A stretch of 28,507 bases of DNA from a virus. Of the stretch, positions 2,418 to 5,734 are shown in pieces. Location of the stretch: the IMG/VR virus record IMGVR_UViG_3300045135_000496, positions 1 through 28,507 of that record; one strand, written 5' to 3'. The translations under genes and the position numbers were made by a program. The stretch's first letter is position 1, and every line of letters starts with the position of its first letter. Under the pieces are notes generated by a model that was not told where the DNA came from, did no database searches, and worked only from the letters and a program-made list of their open reading frames with translations.

Positions 2418-3671
2418 CTAGTATCCTGTTATTGGGTCTAGTATTTCTAGTTCATCTTCCTCATAGTCTACATAGTAACTAATCTTAGCTATTTGATCTA
2501 TGTAGGCTAATGAGTCTATTAAGTCATCGTGGACTAGTGGGTTAGGGAACTGGAAGAGTTGATCGCAGAACTCCGTATTCCACTCTCCTTCAGCTAGTGT
2601 TATTTGACCATTCTCAAAACGGCCCTGTAGAGCCCAAACAACACGATCTATCTTCTTCTGATTGCCGTGTGTTAGTTCTTCAATTCGGAAGTAGCGTTGG
2701 TTAGCCTTCATAAGGTCTGTGATGTAGGGCAACACAGCATTACGTAGAGCACCTTTCTCAATGCCAATACTAACAGGTCTATACTTCGCTACAGCATCAA
2801 AGATCTTCTTAGCAGTCTTCTTGATGTCCCAACGTCCATAGATAATGTCTGCTACGTACCAACCATGCTCGTTAGCCTTAACAACACTAATAGCTGTTTG
2901 GTCGAGCTTCTTAGCTTTAGAGGTGTTGGCATGAGCTATGTCAGCAAAGCCAGCAAGGTCAACAGAGATGTAGTAGTCACCAAACTCTGGCTCTTCTCCA
3001 AACGTAACCCAATCCTCTTTGAAGATCTCTGAGCCTAGTGCTTCGAAGGATGCCATAAACTCCTGTCTGAAGGCATAGCTACTCATAGACTTCTTAGCTA
3101 CGTCAATCTCTGCAGGATCTAGTAGAGGGTTGTCATAGGATGTGAAGTGCCATGCTTTATATGTTGGATCATCTTCAGTGGCTGCATAGGTATATAGGTC
3201 ATAGAAGTGGTTACGACCCATCGGAGTCCCTATGAACATCGCATCACCCTTCTGGTCGGCAAGGGCAGGACGAAGTATCTGTTCCCATACAGTGGGCTTC
3301 ATATCTGCGTATTCATCGAGCACTAGGAACTTAAGACTAACACCACGCATTGTCTCAGGTCTATCAGCGCCCTTTAGGGCTATTGTAGCTCCATTGACCA
3401 GTGTTATCTGTAGGTTGTTAATATGCGTAGACTTGATGATAGGGTGTGCTAACTCTAACAATGTCTGCCACATGATGTCCCTAGCTTGTCCCTGTGTAGG
3501 GGCTACGTAGAAGACATGACCTTTAGTGGCCTGTAGTGCATAGATAATTAGCATCCAAGCAGCTAGACGGGACTTACCAGTACGACGACCTGCAGCGACT
3601 ATCTTGAAGCGAGTCTTGTCGTTGAAGACACCTTGCTGCCAAGGGAGTAGTTCTACATTTAACTCAGCCAT
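2418..3671 (-). CDS. terL: terminase large subunit (packaging ATPase-nuclease)
   Basis: The 417-aa protein shows the two-domain terminase layout. In the ATPase domain, residues 26-34 give a Walker A-like loop (AAGRRTGKS, the arginine-rich variant typical of terminases), FLVLDE with D119-E120 is Walker B plus the catalytic Glu, and FIGTP (136-140) is the coupling motif. In the RNase H-like nuclease domain, the probable metal ligands are D228 in YISVDLAG, E295 in SIGIEKG and the HDD of 371-373 with D376. It docks on the portal and cuts and pumps DNA. Start and upstream stop overlap by one base (TAATG), so it is probably coupled to the small-terminase candidate. Length is somewhat short for the family, but both domains appear complete. 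Confidence 0.95.
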   Translation of the reverse strand: MAELNVELLPWQQGVFNDKTRFKIVAAGRRTGKSRLAAWMLIIYALQATKGHVFYVAPTQGQARDIMWQTLLELAHPIIKSTHINNLQITLVNGATIALKGADRPETMRGVSLKFLVLDEYADMKPTVWEQILRPALADQKGDAMFIGTPMGRNHFYDLYTYAATEDDPTYKAWHFTSYDNPLLDPAEIDVAKKSMSSYAFRQEFMASFEALGSEIFKEDWVTFGEEPEFGDYYISVDLAGFADIAHANTSKAKKLDQTAISVVKANEHGWYVADIIYGRWDIKKTAKKIFDAVAKYRPVSIGIEKGALRNAVLPYITDLMKANQRYFRIEELTHGNQKKIDRVVWALQGRFENGQITLAEGEWNTEFCDQLFQFPNPLVHDDLIDSLAYIDQIAKISYYVDYEEDELEILDPITGY

Positions 3672-4177
3672 TAGTTCACATCCTTGACTTCATAGCTACC
3701 GTCAAAGGCATCGTTTGCCCCATCAGAGGCTTCAGAGCTATCACTACTAGCACCTATGTTGATGGACTCGCCTCCAACGCCGCTGATGGTGATGTTAACA
3801 GAGTTACGTCCATTCCCTTTAGAGACCTCTTGTTCAAACATGCCTGCAGGGAGTATACGATCCATTACGAGCTTCCAAGCTGCTGACTGATTCTTATGTT
3901 CGTCATCAAGAGCAGCGTTTAGAATAGCATCTAAGACCTGTCTACTTTTAGGGCTACTTAGCATACGAGCTTTGTACTCGTTCATTATGGCTGCGTCGCC
4001 TTTTGGACGGCCTACTTTGCCTCTGCCACCTCTAGATTTAGAAGCAACTTCACTCTTTTTAGGTCTTCCACGCTTACGTTTAGGCGGTGTTGACTCTATA
4101 GAGTCGCCGACAGGAGTCTCTATCGTTTCTAACGTGGGATCTTTGGGGTTATTCGAAGATTCTTCGTCTCTTTTCAT
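3671..4177 (-). CDS. candidate terminase small subunit with AT-hook motifs
   Basis: I chose the ATG at 4177 because AAGGAT lies 8 bases upstream; the frame stays open to a TTG at 4198, but that codon has no ribosome site. The 168-aa product begins MKRDEESSNNPKD. About residues 33-62 contain two AT-hook-like basic patches (KRKRGRPKK and GKVGRPKGD), which bind the minor groove of AT-rich DNA. A helical middle follows (NEYKARMLSSPKSRQVLDAI), then an acidic Ser/Gly-rich tail. The position immediately before terL, with a one-base TAATG overlap, is where the DNA-recognising small terminase normally lies. That role is inferred from position and DNA-binding motifs; a nucleoid-like transcription or packaging factor is the alternative. 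Confidence 0.65.
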   Translation of the reverse strand: MKRDEESSNNPKDPTLETIETPVGDSIESTPPKRKRGRPKKSEVASKSRGGRGKVGRPKGDAAIMNEYKARMLSSPKSRQVLDAILNAALDDEHKNQSAAWKLVMDRILPAGMFEQEVSKGNGRNSVNITISGVGGESINIGASSDSSEASDGANDAFDGSYEVKDVN

Positions 4178-4306
4178 AAATCTTATCCTTAAATTCAAAG
4201 GGGATCATTAATAGCCTCGCTGATATAAGCTACAACTGGAAACTAGTGTTAGAATTCAGTGTAACAAGTACTAACGTCTGTTGGGCTTTGTTTACTATAT
4301 AGTAAT

Positions 4307-4335
4307 AGTATATCATATTTTAGAGCAAATGTCAA
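4307..4335 (-). promoter_or_regulatory. sigma-70-like promoter for the packaging/head arm
   Basis: On the minus strand TTGACA (4335-4330) and TATACT (4312-4307) are 17 bases apart. Transcription would begin near 4300 and give a leader of about 120 bases before the small-terminase candidate. It points away from the plus-strand promoter at 5052, so the gene-free region is a divergent control region. Confidence 0.75.
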
Positions 4336-4411
4336 TACCCTATAGCAACTTTTTTTACTAAATAGGATCTGCTTATTTTCTACATAGGTTCTGCACGAGG
4401 TCTGCACAGTT

Positions 4412-5005
4412 CTACACAGCCTACACAGCTATATAACCTATTGATTTAGTAGGGTATTATAGGCTTTATAGGCTTTATAGCTACAGGCTATTGAGAGCTG
4501 TATAATTATTGTAGTTTTTAATAGGTCTTGGTAGCTAGGTAGTGCTATTTAGCCCTATTTTGTGTCTGTGCAGTAGCTACAATAATAATACAGCAGCATA
4601 GCCCCTCCCCCGCCCCTACAAAGATCTCCACAGCCCATTATAGCCCTGCATAGCTACCAAGTCAACAACTAAATAGCTATGAAGACTGGGGAGTTCATAG
4701 TTAAAACTAATTAGACTACACAGCTACACTGTGCTACACAGCATCTATGTACTAGTTAGCTGATACATAGCTACATACTATAAAGATCTGTGGAGCTATA
4801 GAGAAATATTATAGAACTTTATAGATCTTTATAGCCTAGAAAGTTGACATGTGAGAGGCTATGTAGCACCACTCAGAAGCCTTCACAGCCTCCAAAGGCT
4901 TCACAGCACTGTAGAGAGATTACACAGCACTACACAGCTACACAGCACTACACAGCTACACAGCGGCTTCTATATAGCTACACAGAACTACACAGAACTA
5001 CACAG
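4412..5005 (+). repeat. CTACACAG repeat array with an 18-bp tandem core
   Basis: Exact CTACACAG copies start at 4412, 4421, 4716, 4734, 4930, 4938, 4948, 4956, 4978, 4988 and 4998, all in the same orientation. Seven are clustered in 4930-5005, mostly 8 or 10 bases apart. Within the cluster an 18-bp unit (ACACAGCACTACACAGCT) occurs at 4922-4939 and 4940-4957, followed by two copies of a 10-bp unit (ACACAGAACT) at 4980-4999. The cluster ends about 45 bases before the -35 box of the rightward promoter. Iteron-like binding sites for a replication, packaging or regulatory protein are the natural reading. Confidence 0.8.
4602..4616. other. C-rich/G-rich strand-asymmetric tract
   Basis: CCCCTCCCCCGCCCC on the plus strand stands out in a strongly AT-rich region. 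The minus strand has G runs of 4, 5 and 4, enough for a two-layer G-quadruplex if the middle run is shared or split. Function unknown; it could be structural DNA at an origin or packaging site. Confidence 0.5.
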
Positions 5006-5051
5006 ACAACTGTATAGCTAACAAGGTGCATAAAATAATTTAAATTAATTG

Positions 5052-5079
5052 TTGACATATGAATTCAGAGAGCTATAAT
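5052..5079 (+). promoter_or_regulatory. sigma-70 consensus early promoter
   Basis: TTGACA (5052-5057) and TATAAT (5074-5079) both match consensus exactly, with a 16-base spacer. The AT-rich upstream block (TTAAATTAATTG) is shared with the promoter at 12131 and could act as an UP element. It drives the first early genes, with a leader of about 25 bases. Confidence 0.85.
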
Positions 5080-5111
5080 GACCTCATCAACTAACAACGA
5101 GGACAACTTAA

Positions 5112-5527: not shown

Positions 5528-5734
5528 ATGACTATCATTAAACTCTCTAAACACATCAACGGACGTACTCGCTACAACTTGTTTGGAAAACTAAAGGGGT
5601 TTGTAGCTGTGCGTAAACGTAAATCACGAGGCTTTGGTATTCAAAAGCAGAATACTTTCACACAGTTACACTTAGGACGTGTTAGTATTGCTGTAGAGCG
5701 CCGTAGCCGTCATACAGGCAACTTTGCAGGTTAA
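5528..5734 (+). CDS. small basic hypothetical protein
   Basis: The 68-aa product is strongly basic (VRKRKSRGFGIQ, VERRSRHTGN) with a predicted beta-rich pattern, suggesting nucleic-acid binding. AAGGA lies 9 bases before the ATG, inside the tail of the preceding gene, so the two are likely translated together. I do not recognise a family. It sits among early genes driven by the 5052 promoter. Confidence 0.75.
   Translation: MTIIKLSKHINGRTRYNLFGKLKGFVAVRKRKSRGFGIQKQNTFTQLHLGRVSIAVERRSRHTGNFAG

Follow-up and report, generated by a model that had tools for sequence, protein, structure and literature searches.

What is the function of a short word that recurs, always in the same orientation, within the gene-free stretch that separates the two arms of a phage genome? 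The window analysed here is the whole stretch of a 28.5-kb virus record (28,507 nucleotides) from a marine phage with two divergent gene arms. The leftward arm starts at 4198 and carries the genes for TerS, TerL and the portal. The rightward arm runs from 5112 to approximately 19.4 kb with early, replication and nucleotide genes, and there meets the leftward virion genes. A primase-helicase and a DNA polymerase A are encoded, as in cobaviruses. Between the arms lies a gene-free divergent region of 913 bp (4199–5111), delimited by the open reading frame map and by synteny with relatives, with TerS on the minus strand to its left and early genes on the plus strand to its right. The entire repeat array is situated inside this gap.

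The first leftward gene (3671–4198, minus strand) encodes a small terminase-like protein with an AT-hook-like N-terminus. Its assignment as TerS is based on the adjoining TerL gene and on conservation, while Pfam and PHROG searches with this gene gave no match. By consensus match, a putative leftward sigma-70-like promoter (TTGACA-17-TATACT, 4307–4335, minus strand) would serve the terS-terL-portal operon, and a putative rightward early promoter (TTGACA-16-TATAAT, 5052–5079, plus strand) agrees with the sigma-70 consensus at 12 of 12 positions. The gap showed no structured-RNA match in Rfam, and a distant nucleotide search with it in cultured phages returned no meaningful match. An assignment of the host from genome bins was discarded, as only four matches to unrelated phyla were obtained, probably reflecting binning errors.

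The repeated word and its spacing

Exact matches to CTACACAG occur 15 times in the window against 2.4 expected, and the maximum in 100 shuffles was 8. Eleven copies lie on the plus strand, all of them between 4412 and 5005 in the gap, and the remaining four are scattered on the minus strand. An earlier sequence-only reading of this DNA had reported eleven same-direction words and proposed a genome-wide count against a shuffled null; both the number and the excess are confirmed, with the cluster present in the gap only. Two copies spaced 9 bp apart (4412–4428, plus strand) are located to the left of a conserved element A, described below, on an outer flank comparable to the SRR array of phage T7. 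Two further copies together with CTACACTG (4716–4741, plus strand) fall within a proposed terminal repeat. The main cluster (4920–5005, plus strand) is composed of TTACACAG at 4920 and seven copies of CTACACAG starting at 4930, 4938, 4948, 4956, 4978, 4988 and 4998, i.e., at spacings of 8, 10, 8, 22, 10 and 10 bp. It includes an 18-bp tandem unit (4921–4964; 2.4 copies, 100% matches), which represents a local duplication of two 8-bp words. The cluster stops at 5005, leaving 46 bases to the −35 box of the early promoter. Both the tandem duplication and a distance of about 45 bases to this promoter had been noticed from the letters alone. Direct tandem duplications in the gap are found at 4412–4429, 4457–4480 and 4921–4964.

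The seven-copy cluster had further been described as spaced by 8 or 10 bases, near one helical turn, and this phasing was taken to suggest proteins binding on one face of the DNA. The cluster and its steps of 8 and 10 bp hold, with one additional step of 22 bp, but strict helical phasing is not supported. Spacings of 8, 9 and 10 bp are about equally common, so that the copies drift around the helix instead of being held on one face, and the one-face proposal is likewise unsupported.

The broader pattern is CT-N4-AG, of which CTACACAG is the commonest form in the window gap. Including the CTACACAG copies, 46 such words form a field of about 700 bp (4358–5025). The idea that CT-N4-AG acts as a mini-hairpin with a 2-bp stem and a tetraloop was rejected, being opposed by enrichment at other gaps and by a flank tally that showed no pair excess. 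We also looked for the same array elsewhere. Triple occurrences of CTACACAG in eight other viral contigs mostly resemble unrelated coding sequences or simple repeats, and none of them is located at a like junction.

Conserved elements and the slot in relatives

Relatives were collected as 160 loci around primase-helicase and TerL from two IMG/VR scans, and the layout of TerS, gap and early gene is kept among them. The exact CTACACAG array is absent in close relatives, which contain repeated words of their own, such as ten copies of CTTGATAG in L009 or CTAAACAG and CTATTTAG in L052, with others differing again. Such an absence had been named beforehand as a refutation of the array. Since the slot and the habit of filling it with repeats are nevertheless conserved, the comparison with relatives refutes the word, not the array.

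Conserved element A (TTTTGTrTCTGnGnAGgTAC..., followed by a C-rich tail; 4549–4610, plus strand) has its core CTGTGCAG at 4566–4573. It was detected in 87 TerS-upstream regions among those searched, once per region and always on the same strand. Sequence and alignment delineate a C-rich block, AGCCCCTCCCCCGCCCC (4600–4616, plus strand), which may be compared with the G+C-rich stretch conserved at the 5′ side of terminal repeats in cobaviruses (PMC6775973) and with ICBM1. Conserved element B (GTGTGAGnGTCTATGTAGtACCC; 4845–4870, plus strand) has its core CTATGTAG at 4859–4866 and was found in 26 regions at strict thresholds and in 42 of 68 segments when the search was iterated with relaxed ones. 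Confident hits place B 113–299 bp to the right of A. The A core TCTnnGnAGgTAC and the B core TCTATGTAGtACC resemble each other, and the two co-vary: their similarity is 14.3 within a genome versus 12.4 (sd 0.48) between genomes, a value reached in 0 of 5000 permutations with kinship ignored, and similarity to random pieces is far lower at 9.3.

Because the A and B cores are shared and co-vary, they resemble two copies of one terminase site flanking a terminal repeat. The simplest reading would be a single protein that recognises both elements, as a terminase would at the two ends of such a repeat. Most likely, A and B represent two terminase recognition or cut sites, A at the left and B at the right end of a putative direct terminal repeat of about 290–300 bp between the cores (4563–4866, ends approximate), which we propose on the basis of the duplicated, co-varying core. 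The contig ends of relatives gather near A to a mild degree only and do not coincide at a single base, and an attempt to deduce base-exact physical ends from them was abandoned, as no such precision was seen. A second leftward promoter-like site (TTGACT-17-TATAAT, 4637–4665, minus strand) is located within the proposed repeat.

To the right of A, sequence matches were counted within 420 bp and summed over 68 distinct segments. This slot contains 115 DnaA boxes versus about 2.6 expected, with two or more at 25 of the 68 loci, 62 sigma-54 −24/−12 elements versus 0.9 expected (24 loci), and 385 CT-N4-AG words versus 117 expected. Farther downstream, 75.7 kb of sequence yielded just 6 DnaA boxes and 5 sigma-54 elements. 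In relatives' segments without DnaA boxes, CT-N4-AG was the most enriched of all gapped dinucleotide pairs (288 versus 79), and it still ranked first (215 versus 70) when the count left out the window as well as the two strongest relatives. The predicted DnaA boxes and sigma-54 sites in the slots of relatives point to a role in replication or transcription more than to one in packaging. As the same slot holds arrays of recognisable host-protein sites in different members of the phage group, it becomes testable whether a protein docks there, which one it would be, and whether docking would serve replication, transcription, entry or end processing.

Tandem sigma-54 (−24/−12) promoter-like elements to the right of A were seen in L023, L099, L103, L100, L157, L021 and others; L023 contains five such elements at 36-bp steps, and in L021 some occur in both directions. 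In L097, a perfect parS site (TGTTTCACGTGAAACA, 3265–3280) is positioned amid DnaA boxes in the gene-free gap.

Comparison with known end regions

The junction of phage T7 carries 13 copies of CCTAAAG in a single direction, mostly at 13-bp steps, an arrangement reached by none of 300 shuffles. These copies flank its terminal repeat on either side and also occur within it. We take them to be the arrays commonly called SRL and SRR, whose role, to our knowledge, is not settled. In the window, TACACAG occurs 12 times in a single direction at 8- and 10-bp steps, and again none of 300 shuffles reached this. Shared by both phages are a one-direction word of 7–8 bp in more than ten copies, a regular short spacing and the vicinity of early host promoters. 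If the proposed repeat of the window is real, they would also share an array on both sides of and within the terminal-repeat junction. They differ in the word itself, in its spacing (8, 9 and 10 bp here versus 13 bp in T7) and in the gene map, with divergent arms here and a single arm in T7, and sequence homology is not claimed.

Cobaviruses (Zobellviridae, Cobavirinae; ICBM1, SIO1) likewise exhibit a two-arm map with replication and structural genes on separate arms. Their terminal repeats, 159–173 bp long, are placed in the gene-free gap that separates the arms and have a conserved G+C-rich start (PMC6775973); the A–B distances of 113–299 bp bracket these measured lengths. The annotated repeat of ICBM1 occupies the equivalent gap, with a C-rich block after the left end of the repeat. 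The element A and B models gave no significant match at the ICBM1 junction, and the likeness is thus one of layout, positional and compositional, rather than shown homology. ICBM1's own repeated word, TGTTACC in four copies, is at most marginal and was reached by 9 of 300 shuffles. The primase of the window is about 46% identical to that of SIO1 and the terminase has diverged, with the best cultured TerL matches being partial and at most about 44% identical, so that the close replication and packaging proteins that characterise Cobavirinae were not found.

A further parallel is provided by the host regulator CtrA. In some alphaproteobacterial phages, its sites accumulate in the terminal repeats or in gap regions, and their function was tested by EMSA (PMC9437464). 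In the phages surveyed there, DnaA sites showed no positional asymmetry. The DnaA boxes and sigma-54 elements of the present group resemble these clusters in being host-regulator sites concentrated in such regions, although both the regulator and the phages are different.

In relatives, this stretch is occupied by other repeated words, many of which match docking sites for host replication and transcription proteins, and for this reason the array resembles the end-repeat arrays of the T7 type. We favour, at a probability of roughly 0.48, a protein-coated short-repeat array similar to SRL and SRR of T7, placed at the concatemer junction of a cobavirus-like, two-arm lytic podovirus. We infer that the physical ends of a direct terminal repeat of the length given above lie at A and B, with CT-N4-AG words, chiefly CTACACAG, forming arrays to the left of, inside and to the right of it, like CCTAAAG in T7. 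The GC-skew minimum at the gap agrees with this reading, with the reservation that skew also follows gene direction. Counting against it are the imprecise contig ends of relatives, the lack of a significant A or B match at the ICBM1 junction, and the DnaA and sigma-54 matches in the slots of relatives. A DNA-binding protein would coat the array cooperatively and thereby mark the junction, and a junction marked in this way could ensure correct copying and cutting of the terminal repeat. The protein-marked left end may also be kept open for early transcription or replication. The array probably serves as a platform on which proteins dock for end processing or for replication of the left end.

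A replication origin appears to us a tentative, rather doubtful alternative. In such a scenario, the iteron-like words would bind an initiator, either from the phage or a host protein replacing DnaA, which would open an AT-rich tandem repeat adjoining the array (5031–5050) and load the primase-helicase. Plasmid and phage iteron origins do have short repeats clustered in one direction beside an AT-rich stretch, the slots of 25 of the 68 relatives contain two or more perfect DnaA boxes and in L097 the perfect parS site, and GC skew is lowest at the gap and highest where the arms converge near 19.4 kb. The skew, however, is confounded with gene direction, and the window lacks a DnaA box (TTATNCACA) in the 420 bp to the right of A. 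Plasmid iterons are typically 17–22 bp long, much longer than the 8-bp unit found here. Among the proteins scanned, Pfam and PHROGs recognised no initiator (Rep) gene, several early genes being without a family. When the sequence-only reading spoke of iterons or a packaging motif, it chose the right class, namely a candidate protein-binding repeat array in an end, packaging and early-control region, and its packaging-end part is backed by elements A and B as well as by the likeness to cobaviruses and T7. Plasmid-type iterons remain unsupported owing to the unit length, the missing initiator and the absence of a DnaA box to the right of A.

The CT-N4-AG signal in coding DNA

The genome-wide enrichment of CT-N4-AG in coding DNA is genuine. 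Coding sequences of the window contain 313 such words versus 145 in synonymous-codon shuffles (z about 16), and all three codon phases are enriched (ratios of 1.6, 1.6 and 3.7). Additional CT-to-AG peaks appear near 13–16 and 22–25 bp in window coding DNA. Of the gap-specific pairs scored, CT-N4-AG ranked first in the window, L050, L052, L056 and L021 and second in L062, whereas L087, L071 and four cultured phages (SIO1, CRP-143, CRP-4 and CRP-125) lacked the signal. Over 49 loci, the density of CT-N4-AG in the gap correlates with its coding enrichment at a Spearman coefficient of 0.73, kinship being ignored. In the window and in L050, L052, L056, L062 and L021, the coding enrichment is about two-fold, with a roughly 10-bp recurrence. 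As a caution, the T7 genome body (L185) displays weaker gap-specific enrichments of CG-3-AG, AC-4-AG and TC-4-AG, mostly 1.4–1.9-fold across codon phases. Genome-wide dinucleotide periodicity has been described, some lytic phages included (PMC7537859), and curvature-related periodicity was reported to be generally absent from phages (PMC3431218).

A more far-reaching and rather unlikely scenario combines slot and coding signal. The terminal repeat would harbour an exchangeable docking slot for one DNA-binding protein per lineage, seizing host machinery at entry of the genome end, and the protein of the window would also bind genome-wide, with the array as its loading site. If true, the lineage-specific fillers would be DnaA, sigma-54 polymerase, perhaps ParB, or a CT-N4-AG binder, and genome-wide binding would have left the CT-N4-AG signal in coding DNA.

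We also judge it unlikely that the slot acts as an operator or captures host factors, docking DnaA, sigma-54 polymerase, ParB or, here, a CT-N4-AG binder in order to steer early or late transcription, titrate a host factor or ratchet the entering genome end. Such a role would be in line with the three kinds of sites that occupy the same slot across relatives, with the divergent promoters on both sides of the array and with the precedent of CtrA sites in phage terminal repeats and gap regions (PMC9437464), but the analysis identified none among known host proteins that recognises CT-N4-AG. Least probable is a neutral by-product, in which slippage and a regional base-order bias inflated the word in non-coding DNA without any binding role: the direct tandem duplications of the gap, the lack of conservation of CTACACAG itself and the CT-N4-AG enrichment in window coding DNA would fit, but the words occupy a single strand (11 to 0), the array habit recurs at one slot in many diverged genomes with different words, some of them textbook binding sites, and slippage leaves the DnaA boxes and sigma-54 elements unexplained.

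As a candidate for the protein that would coat the T7-like end-repeat array, we considered E2, a 68-aa basic early protein (5528–5734, plus strand). Of the gene families, that of E2 shows the best association with CT-N4-AG enrichment in coding DNA (p 2.6e-6, kinship ignored). E2 proved not sufficient as word-binding partner and was rejected in this role, as L014, L018, L019, L026 and the cultured phages CRP-143 and CRP-4 carry E2 without clear enrichment. The AlphaFold model of E2 is all-beta (pLDDT 78) and showed no fold match in the PDB. The two CRP phages infect Roseobacter, and in L033, L040 and L113 the E2 family additionally makes up the C-terminal portion of longer proteins.
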